Translations under genes and position numbers: made by a program
Assembly (NCBI RefSeq): GCF_000348685.1
Contig: NZ_ANLA01000013.1
Location: forward strand, 1-64,000
Direction of reading: 5' to 3'
Source of the DNA: Xanthomarina gelatinilytica
GTDB lineage: Bacteria > Bacteroidota > Bacteroidia > Flavobacteriales > Flavobacteriaceae
DNA: 64,000 nucleotides
Shown here: piece after piece, positions 3,301-28,853 of the stretch
Position numbering within the stretch: the stretch's first letter is position 1
Layout: each line of letters starts with the position of its first letter
Notes under the pieces: generated by a model
What the model was told of the DNA's origin: nothing
Database searches by the model: none
The model's input: only the letters and a program-made list of their open reading frames with translations

Positions 3301-4697
3301 AACTGAATGGCTTTTCCTTCTATCAATTTAGGTTGGAATGCTTGAATTCCTAATCTGTGTAAGGTAGGAGCACGATTTAAAAGCACTGGATGTCCTTTTA
3401 AAACATTCTCTAAAATGTCCCAAACCACAGGTTCTCTTCTATCTATAATTTTCTTTGCAGATTTTACTGTTTTTACTATACCTCTCTCTATTAATTTTCT
3501 TATAACAAAAGGTTTGTAAAGTTCAGCTGCCATGTTCTTTGGCAATCCACATTCGTATAATTTTAATTCTGGTCCAACAACAATTACCGAACGAGCAGAA
3601 TAGTCCACACGTTTTCCTAATAAGTTTTGACGGAAACGACCTTGTTTCCCTTTTAATGAATCTGAAAGTGATTTTAAAGGTCTGTTTGAATCTGTTTTAA
3701 CTGCTGATGACTTACGTGTGTTATCGAATAGCGAATCTACAGATTCCTGCAACATACGCTTTTCGTTACGTAAAATAACTTCTGGTGCTTTTATTTCAAC
3801 AAGTCTTTTAAGACGGTTGTTTCTAATAATCACACGTCGGTATAAGTCGTTTAAATCTGAGGTAGCAAAACGACCACCATCAAGAGGTACCAAGGGACGT
3901 AATTCCGGTGGAATGATTGGAATGACTTTCATGATCATCCATTCTGGACGATTTTCCCTGTTTTCGTTTGATTCACGAAGGGCTTCCACTACTTGTAACC
4001 TTTTTAAAGCTTCGGTTTTACGTTGTTTAGACGTTTCTGTGTTTGCTTTATGACGTAATTCAAACGACAAACTGTCTAAATCAATTCTTGCCAATAAATC
4101 TATTAAACATTCAGCTCCCATTTTAGCAATAAACTTGTTAGGATCTGAATCTTCAAGGTATTGGTTTTCTTTTGGAAGGGTTTCCAGAATGTTCAAATAT
4201 TCTTCTTCCGTTAAGAAATCCATTTTTTGCAAAGGCTCTCCTTCTGCATTATTTGCAATACCTGGTTGAATAACTACGTAACGTTCGTAGTAAATTATCA
4301 TATCCAGTTTTTTAGATGGTAATCCTAAAAGGTAACCTATTTTATTTGGTAACGAACGGAAATACCAGATATGCGCAACAGGAACAACCAAATTAATATG
4401 TCCTACTCGATCTCTACGTACTTTCTTTTCTGTTACTTCCACACCACAACGGTCGCAAATAATACCTTTGTAGCGAATTCTTTTATATTTTCCACAAGCA
4501 CACTCGTAATCCTTAACAGGACCAAAAATACGCTCACAGAATAAACCATCACGTTCTGGTTTATGAGTTCGATAATTGATAGTTTCTGGTTTTAGGACTT
4601 CACCTCGAGATTCTGCTAAAATAGATTCTGGTGATGCTAAACCAATGGAGATTTTGTTAAATCTCTGTACTGTATTCTTATCTTGTTTTCTTGCCAT
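396..4697 (-). CDS. rpoC: DNA-directed RNA polymerase subunit beta'
   Basis: Largest subunit of RNA polymerase, 1433 residues, cytoplasmic. It carries the N-terminal zinc ribbon (C66, C68, C81, C84), the catalytic magnesium motif NADFDGDQM at roughly residue 475, and a second zinc site with the cysteines of CGTLRG and [11 protein letters not shown] in the C-terminal half. The bridge-helix/trigger-loop region contains [20 protein letters not shown] and FHVGG. The length fits Bacteroidota beta' subunits. The ATG at 4697 directly precedes the conserved start MARKQDK. It lies 90 bases after rpoB in the same transcript, with two small hairpins in the gap. Nothing is missing or broken. Confidence 0.99.
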
Positions 4698-4715
4698 CTT
4701 TTATGTTTTTAGTAT

Positions 4716-4779
4716 GGAGAGCCCGCGAGCTCTCCTTACATACAACGCTTGTTTTAATTGGGACAGTTGCGAATTGTCC
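4716..4779 (-). other. two hairpins in the rpoB-rpoC spacer
   Basis: The first hairpin has 7-bp arms, GGAGAGC and GCTCTCC, at 4716-4735 around a 6-base loop. The second has 5-bp arms, GGACA and TGTCC, at 4761-4779. Neither is followed by a T run in the transcript direction, so they look like RNA-processing or stability elements rather than terminators. The role is inferred. Confidence 0.5.
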
Positions 4780-4787
4780 TCTCGAAA

Positions 4788-7700
4788 TTACTCTTCTAAT
4801 CTAATGTCCAGTCCTAATCCTTTCAATTCGTGCATAAGTACGTTGAAAGATTCTGGTAATCCAGGTTCTGGCATTGGTTCACCTTTTACAATACTTTCAT
4901 AAGTTTTAGCTCTACCAATAACATCATCAGATTTCACGGTCAATATTTCTCTTAATGTTGCAGATGCACCATATGCTTCTAATGCCCAAACTTCCATCTC
5001 TCCAAAACGTTGTCCTCCAAATTGTGCTTTACCACCAAGAGGTTGTTGTGTAATCAATGAGTAAGGTCCTATAGAACGTGCGTGCATTTTATCGTCAACC
5101 ATATGTCCTAATTTTAACATATAGATCACTCCAACTGTTGCAGGTTGGTCAAAACGATCTCCTGTTCCACCATCATATAGATAGGTGTGTCCAAATCTTG
5201 GAATTCCAGCTTCATCTGTAAATTTATTGATTTGGTCTAGAGATGCACCATCAAAAATTGGGGTTGCGTAGGTACGCCCTAACTTTTGTCCAGCCCAACC
5301 AAGAACCGTTTCGTAAATCTGCCCAATGTTCATACGGGAAGGTACACCTAATGGGTTTAGAACTATGTCCACAGGCGTTCCATCTTCTAGGAATGGCATA
5401 TCTTCTTGACGTACTATTCGAGCAACAATACCTTTGTTACCATGACGTCCTGCCATTTTATCTCCAACTTTTAGTTTACGTTTTTTAGCTATGTAAACTT
5501 TAGCTAATTTTATAATACCAGCTGGTAACTCGTCTCCAACAGAAATGGTAAACTTCTCACGACGCAAAGATCCTTGTAAATCGTTTTCCTTAATCTTGTA
5601 GTTATGGATCAAGTCGGCTACCAGTTTATTGGTATAATCGTCTGTTGTCCATACTCCTGTGGTTAAATGTGTATAATCATCTACGGCATTTAACATTTTA
5701 AGGGTGTACTTTTTACCTTTTGGCAATACTTCTTCACCTAGATCATTATAGACACCTTGAGCTGTTTTACCTCCAACGATTGCAAAAAGTTTTTCAACTA
5801 AAACTTCTTTTAAATCGTCGAATTTTTTATCGTAGATACCCTCAAGTTGTGCAATATCTTCTTTATCTTTTGCACGTTTACGTTTATCTTTTACTGCACG
5901 AGCAAATAATTTTTTATCTATTACCACACCATTTAATGAAGGTGATGCTTTTAAAGAGGCATCTTTAACATCTCCTGCTTTATCACCAAAAATAGCTCGT
6001 AATAGTTTTTCTTCAGGAGTTGGATCGCTTTCACCTTTTGGTGTAATTTTTCCAATAAGAATATCTCCTGGTTTTACTTCAGCACCAATACGGATCATTC
6101 CATTTTCGTCAAGGTCTTTGGTAGCCTCTTCAGAAACGTTAGGAATATCGTTGGTAAGCTCTTCGTTTCCTAATTTGGTATCTCTCACTTCAAGAGAATA
6201 CTCATCAATATGGATGGATGTAAAGATATCTTCGCGAACTACTTTTTCAGAAATTACGATCGCATCCTCAAAGTTATACCCTTTCCAAGGCATGAAGGCT
6301 ACTTTCATATTTCTTCCTAAGGCCAATTCTCCTTTTTGAGTTGCATAACCTTCACATAGCACTTGCCCTTTAACAACTTTATCTCCTTTTTCTACAATGG
6401 GTTTTAAGTTGATGGATGTTCCTTGGTTGGTTTTTCTGAACTTGATTAAAGGGTAGGTTTTAACATCGCTATCAAAACTTACTTTTGCCTCGTCTTCTGT
6501 TCTATCATACTTGATAGTGATCTCGTTGGCATCTACATACTCTACCACTCCATTTCCTTCAGCATTGATCAATACACGGGAATCTGAAGCTACTTGTCTT
6601 TCCAGTCCGGTTCCAACAATAGGAGCTTGAGGACGTAATAAAGGGACAGCTTGACGCATCATGTTAGATCCCATCAAGGCTCTGTTTGCATCATCATGTT
6701 CCAAGAATGGAATTAAGGATGCCGAAATGGAAGCAATTTGGTTTGGTGCAACATCTGTATAATGAACTTGGCTTGGTTCCACAACAGGAAAATCGCCTTC
6801 CATTCTGGCAATTACCTTATCGTGAAGAATTTTACCAGTATCATCTACCTTAACGGTTGCTTGAGCGATCATTTGCTCTTCTTCTTCTTCTGCACTTAAG
6901 TAAACAGGTTCTCCTTTAATATCTACAACACCATCTGTTACCTTTCTATAAGGTGTTTCAATGAATCCCATGGAATTCACTTTAGCATAAACAGAAAGTG
7001 AAGAAATAAGACCAATGTTTGGACCCTCTGGAGTCTCAATTGGACAAAGTCTTCCGTAATGTGTATAGTGAACGTCACGAACCTCGAAACCTGCTCTCTC
7101 ACGTGATAAACCACCTGGTCCCAGAGCCGATAAACGACGTTTGTGGGTTATCTCTGCCAATGGGTTTGTTTGATCCATGAACTGAGATAATTGGTTGGTT
7201 CCAAAGAATGAATTAATAACAGACGATAAAGTCTTGGCATTAATTAAGTCTATTGGCGTAAATACTTCGTTATCACGAACGTTCATACGCTCACGAATGG
7301 TACGCGCCATACGCGCTAAACCAACACCAAATTGAGATGACAATTGTTCACCAACTGTACGTACACGACGGTTGGATAAGTGATCGATATCGTCAATCTC
7401 TGCTTTGGAATTAATAAGCTCGATTAAATATTTTATAATGGTAATGATATCTTCTTTGGTAAGTACTTGCTTATCCATTCCAATATCCAAACCTAATTTT
7501 TTGTTCATTCTGTAACGACCTACTTCCCCTAAAGAGTAACGTTGGTCTGAAAAGAATAATTTATCAATGATACCACGTGCTGTTTCCTCATCTGGCGGCT
7601 CAGCATTACGCAGTTGTCTGTATATGTGTTCAACAGCTTCTTTTTCAGAGTTTGTTGGATCTTTTTGTAAGGTGTTGTGGATAATGGCATAGTCACCTTG

Positions 7701-23372: not shown

Positions 23373-23569
23373 ACTCTAAAAATAGGGAAAAAACTTAGAT
23401 TTTTAATTAATTTTGAAGGGATTATTCTACGTTTAATAACCTTTATCTGTAATTAATCCCATCTCTTTAGTAAGGTCTTTAAAACAAATAGGACATACTC
23501 CTTAAGCGATTGTTAAAATTATCTTATTCCAAGTTTAAATGTCGCAAAAGCTTATTATATTTAAGGGAT

Positions 23570-24718
23570 ATGCAAGATTTATTACAATTTTACCTAGTCA
23601 CAAGAAATCAAACCGAAGCGCTTTGCAAACCCTTAAAGACAGAGGATTATACACCTCAATCTGCTGAATTTGCCAGTCCTCCAAAATGGCATTTGGCACA
23701 TACCACTTGGTTTTTTGAGGAAATGATATTAAAATCCTATGTTGAAAACTACCAAGTGTTCGACGACTCTTATAGTTTTTTGTTCAACAGTTATTACAAC
23801 AGTATTGGAGAACGTATTGAGCGTAAAAACCGTGGGCTAATTACCAGACCTTCCATAGAAAAGGTTTACGCCTATCGTGAATATATTGACAAACACATGA
23901 TGGAACTTTTAAAAGGTACAGTTTCTGCAGACCTTAAAAAACTGACCATTTTAGGCATCAATCACGAACAACAACATCAAGAATTACTGATAACCGATTT
24001 AAAATATACCTTTTCCTGCAATCCTATTTATCCTAAGTATTCAGAAACAAATTATATAAGCACGAAAAAACAGACATCAGATTGGTTAGAAGTTCCTGAG
24101 GGCATTTACAACATTGGTCACGCAGGAAATGGGTTTTGTTTTGACAATGAGCTGGGAAGACATCGCGTGTTTTTAGAACCATACAAAATATCTAAAACAT
24201 TAGTGACCAACGGCGATTTTATTGAGTTTATAAACGACAAAGGATACCAACAAGCCAAGTATTGGTTGGACGATGCATGGTATTGGCTGCAACAAAACCA
24301 AGTTAAAAGTCCATTGTATTGGAAACTCGTAAACGGTGTTTGGCACCAATACACGTTATCTGGTTTGCAACCTGTAAATCCAGATGCTATATTAACCCAT
24401 GTTTCTTATTATGAGGCTGCTGCTTATGCCTTTTGGGCAGGCTACAGGTTACCAACAGAATTTGAATGGGAAGTCGCTTCCAAAGAGCTGGATTGGGGAA
24501 CTGTTTGGGAATGGACCAATTCGGCCTATTTACCTTATCCCAATTTTAAAATAGCCAAAGGAGCCGTTGGCGAATACAATGGCAAATTTATGGTAAACCT
24601 CATGGTTTTAAGAGGCGCTTCATCAGCTACTGCAAAAAATCACAGTCGCTTTACCTACAGAAACTTTTTTTCACCCAACACACAATGGCAATTTTCTGGA
24701 ATCAGATTAGCTAAATAA
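23570..24718 (+). CDS. egtB: ergothioneine biosynthesis protein EgtB (hercynine oxygenase)
   Basis: Non-heme iron enzyme that joins hercynine and a thiol (gamma-glutamylcysteine or cysteine) with oxygen to make the sulfoxide precursor of ergothioneine; 382 residues. The DinB-like N-terminal domain holds WHLAHTTWFFEE (40-51) and the iron-binding H132-EQQ-H136-QE. The C-terminal FGE-sulfatase fold contains GYRLPTEFEWE and ends with YRNFFSPNTQWQFSGIRLA, nearly diagnostic for EgtB. The start is the ATG at 23570; the frame is open 20 codons further to a TTG, but homologs start here. Next gene 5 bases downstream is egtD. Which thiol it uses cannot be read from the sequence. Confidence 0.92.
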   Translation: MQDLLQFYLVTRNQTEALCKPLKTEDYTPQSAEFASPPKWHLAHTTWFFEEMILKSYVENYQVFDDSYSFLFNSYYNSIGERIERKNRGLITRPSIEKVYAYREYIDKHMMELLKGTVSADLKKLTILGINHEQQHQELLITDLKYTFSCNPIYPKYSETNYISTKKQTSDWLEVPEGIYNIGHAGNGFCFDNELGRHRVFLEPYKISKTLVTNGDFIEFINDKGYQQAKYWLDDAWYWLQQNQVKSPLYWKLVNGVWHQYTLSGLQPVNPDAILTHVSYYEAAAYAFWAGYRLPTEFEWEVASKELDWGTVWEWTNSAYLPYPNFKIAKGAVGEYNGKFMVNLMVLRGASSATAKNHSRFTYRNFFSPNTQWQFSGIRLAK

Positions 24719-24723
24719 CTTAT

Positions 24724-25671
24724 ATGAACACAAAATTTCAAAACGACATAAACGAAGGTTTAAGCAAAGCCTTAAAATCTTTGCCATCTAAATACTTTTA
24801 CGATAAAACAGGTGACGATTTATTTGTTAAAATAATGAATCTCCCAGAATATTATTTAACCAAAGCCGAATTTGACATTTTTAAAAATCAAACCAAAAAC
24901 ATCATAGCAGCATTGGACATCAATCCCAATGTATATTTTGAATTGATAGAGTTAGGAGCTGGCGATGGCACAAAAACCAAAGAATTGCTAAAGGTATTGA
25001 TTTCCGAAAACTTCAACTTCGATTATATCCCAATAGACATTTCCAACAATGCTTTAAAGCAATTGGAAACCAACCTAAACACTGAAATCCCAAATTTGAA
25101 CGTGACCAAGAAACAAGGCGATTACTTTAACGTTTTGGATGGTTTAAAAACTTCCAACCACCCAAAAGTAGTGTTGTTTTTAGGCTCTAACATTGGCAAC
25201 ATGGAAGACGAAAAGGCCAAACGCTTTATTTCCAAGCTAAGCAGCTCTTTAAACCCCAACGATAAAGTGGTTTTAGGTGTGGATTTAATAAAATCCAAAG
25301 ACATTGTTTTACCTGCTTACAACGACAAAGCAGGTATTACCAAAGCTTTCAACTTTAATTTATTGAACAGAATCAATAAGGAACTGGATGCTAATTTTAA
25401 CATAGATCAATTTTCCCACCAACCTGAATACACCGAAACCGAAGGCATTGCCAGAAGTTATATTGTAAGCAATACAGATCAAGAGGTACATATTGGTGCT
25501 TTAAATAAAACCTTTCAATTTAAAAAAGGGGAAAAAATTCACACCGAAATATCCAGAAAATATAACGATGAGATCTTAAATTCCATTCTAGAAAACAGCT
25601 CTTTAAGAATCGTGACCAAACTATTGGATACCAAATCCTACTTTGCCGATTATATTTTAATTAAAACCTAG
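24724..25671 (+). CDS. egtD: L-histidine N-alpha-methyltransferase EgtD
   Basis: SAM-dependent enzyme that trimethylates histidine to hercynine, the first step of ergothioneine synthesis; 315 residues. The family signature KYFYDKTGDDLF and LPEYYLTKAE is at residues 23-55, followed by the SAM-binding ELGAGDGTKTKELL and the LGSNIGNM segment. The substrate-binding end contains EIHTEISRKY-type text (GEKIHTEISRKYND). It overlaps nothing and starts 5 bases after egtB, so the two are surely one transcript. Complete and apparently functional. Confidence 0.94.
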   Translation: MNTKFQNDINEGLSKALKSLPSKYFYDKTGDDLFVKIMNLPEYYLTKAEFDIFKNQTKNIIAALDINPNVYFELIELGAGDGTKTKELLKVLISENFNFDYIPIDISNNALKQLETNLNTEIPNLNVTKKQGDYFNVLDGLKTSNHPKVVLFLGSNIGNMEDEKAKRFISKLSSSLNPNDKVVLGVDLIKSKDIVLPAYNDKAGITKAFNFNLLNRINKELDANFNIDQFSHQPEYTETEGIARSYIVSNTDQEVHIGALNKTFQFKKGEKIHTEISRKYNDEILNSILENSSLRIVTKLLDTKSYFADYILIKT

Positions 25672-25675
25672 AACC

Positions 25676-26347
25676 ATGACCAAAAATGCCAATATGTTAG
25701 GGATTTTAGGTTTGGGCCATAGAAGTACTTTGTTTTATCTAGATGCCCTAAACAAAGCGTACCATGAAGAAGAACAGGGTTACAGCACCTGTCCTTTTAT
25801 ACTGTACAACACTGATTTTAATTCCATTAATCCGTATTTGCCCAATCAGTTTAAAAAACTTCTTCCTACGCTCACAAGCTACCTTAGTAACTTAGAAAAA
25901 CTTCCCATATCACATCTATTGGTTCCTAACATCACATTACACGAGGCCATGGATAAGCTGGATACAAACCTCAAAATCATCCACCCATTGCCCTTAAGTG
26001 TCAATTTCCTTAAAAAAAAGGACATCAAAGAAACAATTGTTTTTGGTTCAAAATACACCATGACTTCCACATATCTTTCAAACTATTTTTCTTCAAAAGG
26101 CATCCAGACCAGATCTCCATCAAACAAAGACGAGGAATTTATTGATGCCCTAAGACAAAAAATCTATTCCAATACTGAGACCTTAGCAGATAGGGATGCC
26201 TACAACGCCCTTATTGTTAAATACAGTAACAAGGCTCATATATTGATAGCTTGCACCGAACTGTCCATTTTAAACCATCCTACTCATGTTGTGGATATGG
26301 CTCAACTTCAAATAACGGAAGCCTTAAAACAAATAAAGCAACATTAA
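25676..26347 (+). CDS. aspartate/glutamate racemase-fold protein lacking one catalytic Cys
   Basis: A 223-residue protein of the Asp/Glu racemase superfamily, 4 bases after egtD. The N-terminal GILGLGHRSTLFYLDALN matches the GxxGGxGPxxT motif in degraded form, and the C-terminal half has ILIACTELSIL with C193, the second catalytic cysteine. The first catalytic position, normally PCNTAH, reads PNITLH (84-89), with Asn85 replacing the cysteine. Ordinary two-cysteine racemisation is therefore unlikely. Its substrate may instead be an ergothioneine-pathway intermediate; that is inference from its operon. Confidence 0.75.
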   Translation: MTKNANMLGILGLGHRSTLFYLDALNKAYHEEEQGYSTCPFILYNTDFNSINPYLPNQFKKLLPTLTSYLSNLEKLPISHLLVPNITLHEAMDKLDTNLKIIHPLPLSVNFLKKKDIKETIVFGSKYTMTSTYLSNYFSSKGIQTRSPSNKDEEFIDALRQKIYSNTETLADRDAYNALIVKYSNKAHILIACTELSILNHPTHVVDMAQLQITEALKQIKQH

Positions 26348-26359
26348 ACACTTACAATT

Positions 26360-27070
26360 ATGAAAAAACCAGATTTTACAGATTTAAAAGCCATGTATGT
26401 TAATTGTACCTTGAAAAAATCGCCTAGACAAAGCCATACCGATGGTTTGATGGAAGTTTCCAGGAAAATCATGAAAGCTGAAGGCGTTTCAGTAAGACAA
26501 ATAAGATTTGTAGATCACGAAGTTGCTTATGGCGTGTATCCAGATATGACAGAACATGGTGTTGAAAAAGATGAGTGGCCAAAATTATTCAAGGATATTT
26601 TTGAAGCCGATATTTTAATTATTGGAACTCCTATATGGTTAGGTGAAAAATCGTCTGTCTGCCAAAAACTCATTGAGCGTTTATATGCCATGAGTGGTAA
26701 AACAAACAACAAAGGTCAATACCTGTTTTACGGAAAAGTTGGTGGTTGTGTCATTACAGGAAATGAAGATGGCATAAAACATTGTGCTATGGGTATTTTA
26801 TACGCTTTACAACATGTTGGGTATTCCATTCCTCCTCAAGCCGATTGTGGTTGGATTGGTGAAGCTGGACCTGGTCCAAGCTATATGGACGAAGAAAGCC
26901 ATGCCAAAGACAACAGCTTTACCAATAGGAACACTACGTTTATGACGTATAATTTACTGCATTTGGCAAAATTACTGAAAGAAAACAAAGGGTATTCCAA
27001 TTATGGAAACTCCAGGGAAGCTTGGGATGATGGAACCCGTTGGAATTTTGAAAATCCTAAATATAGATAA
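26360..27070 (+). CDS. flavodoxin-like NAD(P)H-dependent oxidoreductase
   Basis: A 236-residue protein with a flavodoxin-like fold: a first strand/phosphate-loop region YVNCTLKKSPRQSHTDGL (13-31), a second FMN-contacting segment ADILIIGTPIWLGEKSS (about 88-104), and GYSIPPQADCGWIGEAGPG near 155-173. No disulfide- or iron-sulfur motif is visible. It starts 12 bases after the racemase-like gene and ends the egtBD operon. Its partner is not named by the sequence; possible roles are reductive recycling of ergothioneine sulfoxide or disulfide, which is conjecture. Confidence 0.72.
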   Translation: MKKPDFTDLKAMYVNCTLKKSPRQSHTDGLMEVSRKIMKAEGVSVRQIRFVDHEVAYGVYPDMTEHGVEKDEWPKLFKDIFEADILIIGTPIWLGEKSSVCQKLIERLYAMSGKTNNKGQYLFYGKVGGCVITGNEDGIKHCAMGILYALQHVGYSIPPQADCGWIGEAGPGPSYMDEESHAKDNSFTNRNTTFMTYNLLHLAKLLKENKGYSNYGNSREAWDDGTRWNFENPKYR

Positions 27071-27333: not shown

Positions 27334-27750
27334 ATGAAGACTTATTTAGGGATTTTATTTTTCGGGGCCCTTTTATTTTCCGGATGCGATCAATCTAAAT
27401 CCAAAACAACAAATAGTAATACTGAGCAGAACGTTACGCAAGAAACACCAGCAGAACAAACAACAAATGCCCTAAAGACCAATTCCAATAAGGCTTCCAG
27501 TGCTCCTACGCAAACAGCTACAGGCATGAATCCAGCTCACGGACAACCTGGACATGATTGTGCCATTCCTGTTGGAGCACCTTTAAATAGTAAAAACAAT
27601 TCATCTCCTGTGGTAAATCCTGGAAGTTCATCACCTGTTATCAACCCAGGAAGCTCCTCTCCTGTTCAGACTGCTCCTGGTATGAATCCGGCTCATGGAC
27701 AACCTGGGCACGATTGTACCATTCCTGTGGGAGCGCCTTTGAATAAGTAA
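27334..27750 (+). CDS. small lipoprotein with duplicated NPAHGQPGHDC motif
   Basis: A 138-residue exported lipoprotein. Signal peptide residues 1-17 with lipobox LFSGC, lipidated Cys18. A Thr/Asn/Gln-rich linker leads to two 22-residue repeats (64-85 and 116-137) differing at one position, each containing MNPAHGQPGHDC and ending VGAPLN. Between them runs a low-complexity SSPVVNPGS/SSPVINPGS/SSPVQTAPG tandem. The two His and one Cys per repeat suggest metal binding. I recall the same motif, often a single copy, at the C-termini of other Bacteroidota proteins. Function unknown. It has its own terminator and stands 263 bases after the egt operon. Confidence 0.8.
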   Translation: MKTYLGILFFGALLFSGCDQSKSKTTNSNTEQNVTQETPAEQTTNALKTNSNKASSAPTQTATGMNPAHGQPGHDCAIPVGAPLNSKNNSSPVVNPGSSSPVINPGSSSPVQTAPGMNPAHGQPGHDCTIPVGAPLNK

Positions 27751-27846: not shown

Positions 27847-28827
27847 TTATTCAATATAACCCATTTTCTTCATCCAATCGTCGTTAAACATTTTGCCTAC
27901 ATATCTGCTGCCATGATCGTGGAATAAAACCACAACCACATCGTCTTTTGTAAAGTGTTCTTTTAATTGCAACACGCCTTTAATGGCTGCTCCAGCAGAA
28001 TTCCCTAAAAACATGCCTTCTTTCTTTGCCAATAATTGGGTGTAAACAGCTGCATCCTTATCGGTTACTTTAGTAAACCCATCAATAATATCGAAATCCA
28101 CATTTTTAGGTAAAATGTCTTCTCCTATCCCTTCGGTAACGTAAGGGTAAATTTCATTTTCATCGAAAACACCTGTTTCATGATATTTTTTAAATACAGA
28201 ACCATAGGTATCCACTCCCCAGACTTTCACATCTGGATTTTGTTCTTTTAAATATTTTCCAACACCAGAAATAGTTCCACCTGTACCAACACCAACAACA
28301 AAATGTGTTATTTTCCCTTCTGTTTGTTTCCAGATTTCTGGTCCAGTACTTTGATAATGCGCTTTTGTATTGCTTAAATTATCGTATTGGTTGACATACC
28401 AAGAGTTAGGCGTTTCCTCACCTAAACGCTTAGAAACAGAATAATAAGAACGTGGATCTGTAGGTTCTACATCTGTAGGACAAACAATAACTTCTGCACC
28501 TACTGCTTTCAACATATCTATTTTCTCTTTACTCTGTTTATCAGCCATCACAAAAATGCATTTGTAACCTTTTACTATAGCCGCTAAAGCCAAACCCATT
28601 CCTGTATTCCCAGAAGTTCCTTCTATAATGGTTCCTCCCGGTTTTAAACGTCCATCGGCCTCGGCATCTTCAATCATGGTTAAGGCCATTCTGTCTTTTA
28701 CAGAATTTCCAGGATTAAAGGTTTCGTATTTTGCCAATACCAAACATGGTAATTCTTCTGTTAAGGCATTCATTTTAACCAATGGCGTGTTGCCTATGGT
28801 TTCCAGTATGTTCTTTGCGTAATCCAT
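27847..28827 (-). CDS. PLP-dependent cysteine synthase / cystathionine beta-synthase core
   Basis: A 326-residue fold-type II PLP enzyme. The PLP lysine is in NPGNSVKDRMAL (about residue 46), the substrate loop is EGTSGNTGMGLALAA, and the phosphate-binding GVGTGGTISGVGKYL follows. The C-terminal segment FNDDWMKKMGYIE resembles the end of cystathionine beta-synthase cores more than CysK. Heme-binding and regulatory CBS domains are absent. It could make cysteine from O-acetylserine, or cystathionine/H2S from serine plus homocysteine. I chose the ATG at 28827 because a TAAATTTG promoter box lies at 28846-28853, upstream of it; a TTG at 28848 would sit inside that box. Confidence 0.88.
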   Translation of the reverse strand: MDYAKNILETIGNTPLVKMNALTEELPCLVLAKYETFNPGNSVKDRMALTMIEDAEADGRLKPGGTIIEGTSGNTGMGLALAAIVKGYKCIFVMADKQSKEKIDMLKAVGAEVIVCPTDVEPTDPRSYYSVSKRLGEETPNSWYVNQYDNLSNTKAHYQSTGPEIWKQTEGKITHFVVGVGTGGTISGVGKYLKEQNPDVKVWGVDTYGSVFKKYHETGVFDENEIYPYVTEGIGEDILPKNVDFDIIDGFTKVTDKDAAVYTQLLAKKEGMFLGNSAGAAIKGVLQLKEHFTKDDVVVVLFHDHGSRYVGKMFNDDWMKKMGYIE

Positions 28828-28845
28828 TTTAATTTTTTTCAGTTG

Positions 28846-28853
28846 CAAATTTA
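28846..28853 (-). promoter_or_regulatory. -7 box of the cysteine synthase promoter
   Basis: On the minus strand TAAATTTG fits the TAnnTTTG consensus and stands 19 bases before the ATG at 28827. No convincing -33 box could be placed 19-21 bases upstream. Confidence 0.5.

Follow-up and report, generated by a model that had tools for sequence, protein, structure and literature searches.

The stretch of DNA considered here, referred to as the window, comprises 64,000 nucleotides (nt) of Xanthomarina gelatinilytica (contig NZ_ANLA01000013.1, positions 1 to 64,000) and contains a run of four genes, egtB-egtD-RAC-FLD, all on the + strand and separated by gaps of 5, 4 and 12 nt according to the list of open reading frames (ORFs) of the window. 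The two egt genes belong to the biosynthesis of the antioxidant ergothioneine, and RAC, a protein with the fold of aspartate/glutamate (Asp/Glu) racemases, is very probably a further member of that pathway. The step that RAC carries out is more tentatively assigned, and the candidate given most weight below is a carbon-sulfur (C-S) lyase that works without pyridoxal phosphate (PLP). FLD is a protein of flavodoxin fold that is predicted to carry flavin mononucleotide (FMN). The features of the run are as follows.

23570..24718, + strand: egtB (TIGR03440, 520 bits against a cut-off of 360)
24724..25671, + strand: egtD, L-histidine N-alpha-methyltransferase (PF10017, 326 bits)
25676..26347, + strand: RAC, protein of the Asp/Glu-racemase fold with one catalytic cysteine; a C-S lyase function without PLP is proposed (Asp_Glu_race match, AlphaFold2 model)
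25925..25942, + strand: PNITLH motif (P84-H89) of RAC, in place of the x-A/T/S-N-T-x-H motif of its relatives
26252..26266, + strand: CTELS motif of RAC, including C193, which aligns with Cys197 of the racemase EcL-DER
26360..27070, + strand: FLD, FMN protein with flavodoxin fold that resembles RosB and is not always part of the operon (FMN_red, 41.7 bits against 24)

The egtB ORF can be read from a TTG at 23510, the ATG at 23570 being the likelier start. EgtD scores 283.6 bits against TIGR03438, slightly below the cut-off of 290.9, and a search of the 3.05-Mb genome for EgtD gives a single match. Within RAC, Asn85 is encoded at 25928-25930 and Cys193 at 26252-26254. An earlier reading of the letters alone (the sequence-only reading) had placed two further genes 4 and 12 nt behind the egtB-egtD pair and had pointed out these two residues; the ORF coordinates and the sequence agree with it on both counts.

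The connection of RAC to ergothioneine is most apparent from its distribution. Among 199 genomes of the family there are 14 close RAC orthologs, the window's own included, at 38-100% identity, after which the next full-length matches fall to at most 26% and are generic racemases; two further genomes hold RAC as broken or partial pieces only. All 14 orthologs sit behind egtB-egtD. A full EgtD is found in 82 of the 199 genomes, and the chance of 14 of 14 RAC genomes falling in this set is 2e-6, uncorrected for kinship. In a sample of 395 genomes from the phylum, a strong RAC match occurs in four (above 300 bits, the next match scoring 89) and all four have EgtD, which is present in 128 of the 395. 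A third set, from a scan of named genomes, consists of the best 80 RAC loci of 175 relatives; these overlap the family genomes, such that the two sets are not independent, and the short loci have flanks of about 1.5 kb. Here egtD lies directly upstream of RAC in 71 of the 80, and the gap between the EgtD stop and the RAC start, measured over 74 loci with mechanically chosen starts, has a median of 1 nt and is negative in 30.

Departures from the usual arrangement are few. The order egtB-egtD-FLD-RAC is seen in three of the 80 loci (L160, L182, L203), and RAC stands alone in four, all from Flavobacterium (L148, L155, L173, L207). These four genomes have a full EgtD elsewhere, adjoining a gene for a BCCT transporter, and therefore the association between RAC and ergothioneine outlives the operon. 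Some loci counted as having the intact order include broken genes, namely a split egtB (L156), a split egtB and egtD (L194) and a damaged egtB (L186). At L202 (Brumimicrobium oceani, 3774-4988) an intact RAC is immediately preceded by an ORF in which the beginning of egtB is fused to the final part of egtD, and a full EgtD was not found in that genome. The tie between RAC and the ergothioneine genes that was read from the window is upheld by these counts, and a pattern in which the neighbours occur mostly without egtBD was found neither for RAC, which is linked to them, nor for FLD, whose core orthologs all come from egtD genomes (see below). The four-gene order did not prove to be a conserved unit; the unit is egtB-egtD-RAC, to which FLD is added in just 14 of the 80 loci.

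The cassette is also encountered outside the phylum. An isolate of Pseudomaricurvus carries it at a G+C content of 0.478, compared with 0.571 and 0.564 in the flanks, and it is present in metagenome-assembled genomes (MAGs) named Thiotrichaceae, Endobugula, Hellea and Ghiorsea, for which contamination is possible. A plasmid search was without match. In a midpoint-rooted EgtD tree (177 sequences reduced to 158 by dropping matches shorter than 250 amino acids, four duplicate loci and identical sequences) the best clade holds 82 of the 83 RAC-linked sequences together with L077, L063 and L099, at a support of only 0.32. L063 is the mislabelled egtD locus of a RAC-positive genome (G193), L099 comes from a genome without a RAC match (G033), and the RAC-linked L186 falls outside the clade.

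RAC, as modelled, has the Asp/Glu-racemase fold. The window protein scores 26.2 bits against Asp_Glu_race (PF01177), for which the gathering threshold is 31, and 76 of 81 RAC members match that family at E<=0.001. The AlphaFold2 model, obtained with 81 sequences, has a mean predicted local distance difference test (pLDDT) score of 95, and its best structural match is 5hra, the aspartate/glutamate racemase EcL-DER (Z 25.8, root-mean-square deviation 2.4 over 219 residues, 19% identity); it also matches 1jfl (Z 22.5) and the arylmalonate decarboxylase 2vlb (Z 12.6). Racemase models matched RAC, and neither the profile of the PLP-dependent lyase EgtE nor the class-V aminotransferase fold did so.

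The active site of RAC was compared between 81 RAC members and 42 generic loci drawn from the family and phylum searches (L031 and L109 among them are the same gene). The two catalytic cysteines of the classical racemases are not both found in RAC, which has N85 and C193 in 81 of 81 members. Position 85 is A, T or S in all 42 generic loci, and position 86, which is I in 80 RAC members and V in one, is N in all 42; RAC thus has N85 followed by I86 where EcL-DER and RacX have Ala, Thr or Ser followed by a substrate-binding Asn. Three more positions are fixed in all 81 RAC members: R at 160 (Y or F in 32 of the 42), S at 197 (P in 36 of the 42, S in two) and Q at 212 (H in 42 of 42). C193 is found in every RAC member and in 40 of the generic loci, and E195 in every RAC member. 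The first catalytic cysteine is present in none of the 42. The single-cysteine state is thus common to RAC and the branch of EcL-DER and RacX, and what sets RAC apart is a pocket that has been remodelled and shows hardly any variation.

These comparisons alter what can be drawn from the missing cysteine. The sequence-only reading had RAC losing its first catalytic cysteine and, on that account, doing something other than racemisation. Asn85 is indeed at that position, and "lost" is misleading given that no generic locus has the cysteine. The step from its absence to a non-racemase does not follow, in that EcL-DER (Thr/Cys) and RacX (Ala/Cys) are described as racemases in the passages on them in PMC8142540 and PMC12838360; the missing cysteine taken alone was accordingly rejected as a sign of a new reaction. 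RacX of the Flavobacteriales (Ala79/Cys193) racemises in both directions, and docking and mutagenesis identify the Asn and Thr after its first catalytic position as substrate contacts, according to the account of RacX in PMC12838360. Escherichia coli YgeA, which is equated with EcL-DER in PMC12838360, acts on S- and R-homoserine alike according to the part of PMC8142540 dealing with it. The remodelled pocket is the better argument for a distinct function because single-cysteine relatives still racemise.

The pathway step that is most in need of an enzyme depends on the type of EgtB. The nearest solved structures to the window EgtB are 8qf6, 6qki and 6o6l (395 bits), the NSYY motif is conserved, and the 77 EgtB ORFs in the 80 loci all carry SYY except for two short ones that stem from split genes (75 of 77). 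The EgtB of Candidatus Chloracidobacterium thermophilum prefers cysteine as donor according to PMC10903977. The window EgtB is, by homology, a hercynine sulfoxide synthase nearest to this cysteine-preferring type, and the same donor preference is predicted for it. Replacements for EgtA and EgtC may therefore be unneeded, contrary to their treatment in the sequence-only reading as a gap to be filled, and if the window EgtB behaves like the C. thermophilum enzyme it is mainly the EgtE step that is left unaccounted for.

No match to the EgtA, EgtC or EgtE models is listed for the 37 window ORFs scanned, which agrees with their reported absence from the window, and no genome-wide search was aimed at EgtA or EgtC. 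The scan covered 37 of 49 ORFs of at least 120 amino acids at E 0.1 or E 1e-20, two of them by their best 25 families. Genome-wide, the EgtE model gave no match above its cut-off of 400 in a search without positive control, and two below it (64 and 43 bits). The first of these is SufS (588 bits against a cut-off of 475) and the second is an IscS/NifS-like protein below every cut-off shown, and an EgtE elsewhere in the genome was rejected on these grounds, in a search where no control exceeded the cut-off. This absence carries limited weight, because in 14 control genomes the EgtE model matches below the cut-off every time and passes it in 0 of 14. A complete egtACE set elsewhere in the genome, which would have spoken against a replacement, is answered for EgtE by these two sub-cut-off matches, EgtE being the sole member searched for genome-wide.

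In other Flavobacteriaceae with egtBD a PLP protein of class V is a possible counterpart to RAC. Of 40 hand-picked, non-random family stretches, 13 are RAC loci and 27 have no intact RAC; in 15 of these 27 the class-V gene follows downstream of egtBD and is encoded on the other strand. Its profile matches are to cysteine desulfurases (best 80 bits), C-DES (66 bits) and Egt2 (41 bits), and a class-V member scores only 23 bits against the EgtE model. The protein occurs in 73 of the 199 family genomes, 55 with EgtD and 18 without, and the 55 are drawn from the 68 egtD genomes other than those with RAC. It was not found in RAC genomes, either in the family (0 of 14) or in the named scan (0 of 78), although the same profile matches elsewhere; the named search covered 78 of the 80 loci (all except L146 and L197), and the family search scored at most ten candidates per genome. 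This mutual exclusion is weak support for RAC acting as a lyase.

Several strands of chemistry suggest how a racemase fold could serve the EgtE step. In the EgtE reaction, as set out in the mechanistic part of PMC4493562, the cysteinyl alpha-proton is removed, a sulfenic acid is expelled and a reductant yields ergothioneine. Glutamate racemases in which one cysteine is replaced by serine catalyse a stereospecific beta-elimination of 3-chloroglutamate (section 9 of PMC8142540), and EcL-DER, with Thr in place of one cysteine, converts S-Asp to R-Asp irreversibly (section 7 of the same source), from which we infer that its lone cysteine acts on the L side. On these two precedents it would be reasonable for a racemase with one cysteine to act as a lyase if its substrate is an S-conjugate of L-cysteine carrying a good leaving group. 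The proposal has the further merit that Asp/Glu racemases take the alpha-proton of an amino acid without a cofactor.

The reaction that we consider most likely for RAC, by analogy and with rather less than even confidence, is a PLP-free C-S beta-elimination of hercynylcysteine sulfoxide in which RAC stands in for EgtE/Egt2. EgtD would make hercynine, and EgtB would join hercynine and L-cysteine to give hercynylcysteine sulfoxide. Cys193 of RAC would then deprotonate the cysteinyl alpha-carbon from the place of the EcL-DER base that is thought to act on L-amino acids. With Asn85 there would be no acid on the opposite face for reprotonation, and the sulfenate would leave by beta-elimination, the products being ergothioneine sulfenic acid and aminoacrylate (pyruvate and ammonia). 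Thiols would then reduce the sulfenic acid, or a flavin/NAD(P)H enzyme such as FLD would do so in genomes that have one. RAC as a replacement for the sulfoxide-processing step, one of the options raised in the sequence-only reading, is the best explanation found, as argued by analogy.

A number of observations weigh against the lyase assignment. Single-cysteine relatives racemise, also in both directions, which makes both the missing cysteine and the L-side argument non-diagnostic, and loss of the substrate-binding Asn (I86) means that the substrate may not be an alpha-amino acid held as in EcL-DER. RAC is found in only 14 of the 82 family genomes with EgtD, and 13 of the 82 have neither RAC nor the class-V protein, so that other lyases must suffice somewhere; the class-V protein is in turn present in the 18 genomes without egtD, and lineage may explain its exclusion from RAC genomes. 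RAC can also be lost, as shown in one of these 13 genomes by a RAC pseudogene behind intact egtBD, with FLD likewise intact (G121/L077). Lastly, a MAG (L142) has egtB-RAC on a 5-kb contig, and no EgtD was found in its 2.4 Mb.

An alternative, unlikely in our estimate, is that the pathway substrate of RAC is a different compound, such as histidine, hercynine or an oxidised form of ergothioneine, handled in supply, salvage or repair. Linkage alone names no step, the 13 egtD genomes with neither candidate indicate that other lyases can probably perform the EgtE step, and E. coli YgeA, a member of the same branch, racemises histidine weakly according to the YgeA entry of PMC8142540. Such a role fits less well with the position of RAC, which is mostly inside the core biosynthetic operon and at next to no distance from egtD, and no transporter or salvage gene is a regular partner of RAC in the loci listed.

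RAC could also be an epimerase that inverts the cysteinyl alpha-carbon of hercynylcysteine sulfoxide, after which a D-specific fold-II PLP lyase would cleave the product, a scheme that we regard as improbable. It has a parallel in the cysteate racemase CuyB, which feeds the D-cysteate lyase CuyA. The CuyB model matches 79 of the 81 RAC members at E<=0.001 (39.8 bits for the window protein against a cut-off of 190), the single-cysteine relatives of RAC are racemases, and a candidate for the lyase lies behind FLD in the window:

27847-28848, - strand: PALP-family enzyme, convergent behind FLD

This PALP protein is best matched by cysteate synthase (475 bits, cut-off 600), cystathionine beta-synthase (425 bits, cut-off 510) and cysteine synthase models, all below their cut-offs, and it has a homologue in only four of the 80 RAC loci (L135, L136, L137, L197). 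Asn85 would moreover be ill suited as the acid that reprotonates, and RAC no longer has the Asn with which racemases bind their substrate. An ordinary amino-acid racemase hitch-hiking in the operon is very improbable: the fold is that of 5hra and the catalytic cysteine is that of RacX and EcL-DER, but RAC is a separate group (at least 38% identity to the window protein within it, at most 26% beyond), its pocket positions are changed and hardly vary, and co-occurrence is kept after operon break-up, the first two points being those on which "ordinary aspartate racemase" was rejected as a description.

FLD has a flavodoxin-like fold of the FMN_red type. Its nearest solved relative by both sequence and fold is RosB (5mji; 140 bits, fold match at E 5.6e-16), and its own structure model is of middling confidence (pLDDT 75.5). 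The title of 5mji names a RosB intermediate, and the literature on the 5mji protein yielded nothing bearing on FLD. Core orthologs of FLD (at least 69% identity) number 32 in the family sample and all 32 come from EgtD genomes (P 6e-15, kinship uncorrected), with five of them within 4 kb of egtD, ten at 62 to 711 kb on the same contig and 17 on another contig; of eight weaker matches (45-54%), six are in EgtD genomes. FLD occurs in 19 of the 49 RAC genomes searched (49 of the 80 being covered) and lies near egtD in three of 30 phylum-sample loci (L222, L237, L243), none of which shows RAC, the 30 being the best-scoring loci and not a random sample. FLD is tied to ergothioneine, not specifically to RAC, and its assignment to the ergothioneine genes in the sequence-only reading holds by co-occurrence, more loosely than that of RAC.

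FLD may reduce ergothioneine sulfenic acid or disulfide as a finishing or recycling partner that acts independently of RAC, a role that we consider possible and somewhat doubtful. The complete confinement of its core orthologs to egtD genomes, mostly unlinked, and its occurrence near egtD in the phylum sample are consistent with this, as is EgtE chemistry, which leaves a sulfenic acid in need of a reductant (mechanistic part of PMC4493562). The P value ignores shared ancestry, only 32 of the 82 egtD genomes have FLD at 69% identity or more, and the nearest solved relative is a flavin-modifying enzyme, such that FLD may modify flavin instead of reducing thiols.

Other genes are encountered in RAC and egtBD loci. 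In six Flavobacterium RAC loci (L167, L183, L189, L190, L191, L199) a pyridine-nucleotide disulfide oxidoreductase is inserted between egtB and egtD, and in L167, L183, L191 and L199 a betaine-type BCCT transporter lies there as well, both named from family searches on the L167 proteins; they may reduce oxidised ergothioneine and transport hercynine or ergothioneine, respectively. An NmrA-like NAD(P)-binding protein (assigned by a family search with the L068 protein) lies directly downstream of RAC in L067-L070, L073, L075 and 21 of the 80 loci L134-L213 and is another candidate redox partner; a putative AraC-type regulator, recognized by eye, is upstream in several loci. Another group of egtBD loci (L080, L082, L097, L098, L100, L102, L103) has nearby genes for an alpha/beta-hydrolase-OsmC fusion (identified through the L098 protein in a family search) and/or for methionine sulfoxide reductase-like proteins (named from sequence alone). 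At L197 a 56% homologue of the window PALP protein stands in line just upstream of egtB, perhaps supplying cysteine. One small ORF lies between FLD and the PALP gene of the window:

27334-27750, behind FLD: small ORF, lipoprotein-like, in which an imperfect repeat, MNPAHGQPGHDC.IPVGAPL, occurs twice

It has no Pfam family, and homologues of it (69-73%) lie behind RAC in L135 and L136.

For organisms other than actinobacteria and fungi the enzyme behind the C-S cleavage in ergothioneine biosynthesis often goes unassigned, since generic class-V PLP enzymes are difficult to distinguish from EgtE-like ones. RAC offers a PLP-independent, egtBD-linked lyase candidate with a defined one-cysteine mechanism that is directly testable. 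If the assignment is true, it would be a clear case of non-homologous enzyme replacement, a racemase turned lyase, and RAC could serve ergothioneine production strains. No racemase-like egt gene is described in the titles and abstract openings of the open-access ergothioneine papers listed by searches that were in part capped; subscription papers are mostly outside this set, and the result is not proof of novelty. The wider picture would be an EgtE-free finishing module in which a cofactor-free RAC, converted to a C-S beta-lyase through retention of the L-side cysteine base alone, is followed by reduction of ergothioneine sulfenic acid or disulfide by FLD (where present) or, in some Flavobacterium, by a disulfide reductase, the egtB-egtD-RAC cassette moving between phyla; that all of these parts hold together is unlikely, and they are put forward jointly as a conjecture.

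Among known systems, Candidatus Chloracidobacterium thermophilum EgtB (6qki, 6o6l) is the nearest solved relative of the window EgtB, with the active-site Tyr-Tyr pair common to both. RosB makes 8-aminoriboflavin phosphate for roseoflavin; it is the nearest solved relative of FLD, which differs from it by co-occurring with egtBD. EcL-DER/YgeA (5hra, 5ell) and Flavobacteriales RacX have the fold and the single catalytic cysteine (C197/C193) in common with RAC, in which Thr83 of EcL-DER and Ala79 of RacX are replaced by Asn85 and Asn80 of RacX by Ile86; RAC further differs by near-invariant changes at 104, 160, 164, 197 and 212 and by its linkage to egtBD. Arylmalonate decarboxylase (2vlb), with one catalytic cysteine at the second position, and other cofactor-free lyases share the superfamily fold and show its capacity for non-racemase chemistry, although the decarboxylase is far more distant from RAC and decarboxylates its substrate, whereas a beta-elimination is proposed for RAC. 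The enzyme closest in proposed function is EgtE/Egt2 (TIGR04343; Egt2 5uts), a PLP-dependent C-S lyase for which the step and the substrate would be the same; RAC has the Asp/Glu-racemase fold, lacks a PLP domain and bears no sequence relation to it, and would be, if the proposal is true, its non-homologous stand-in.

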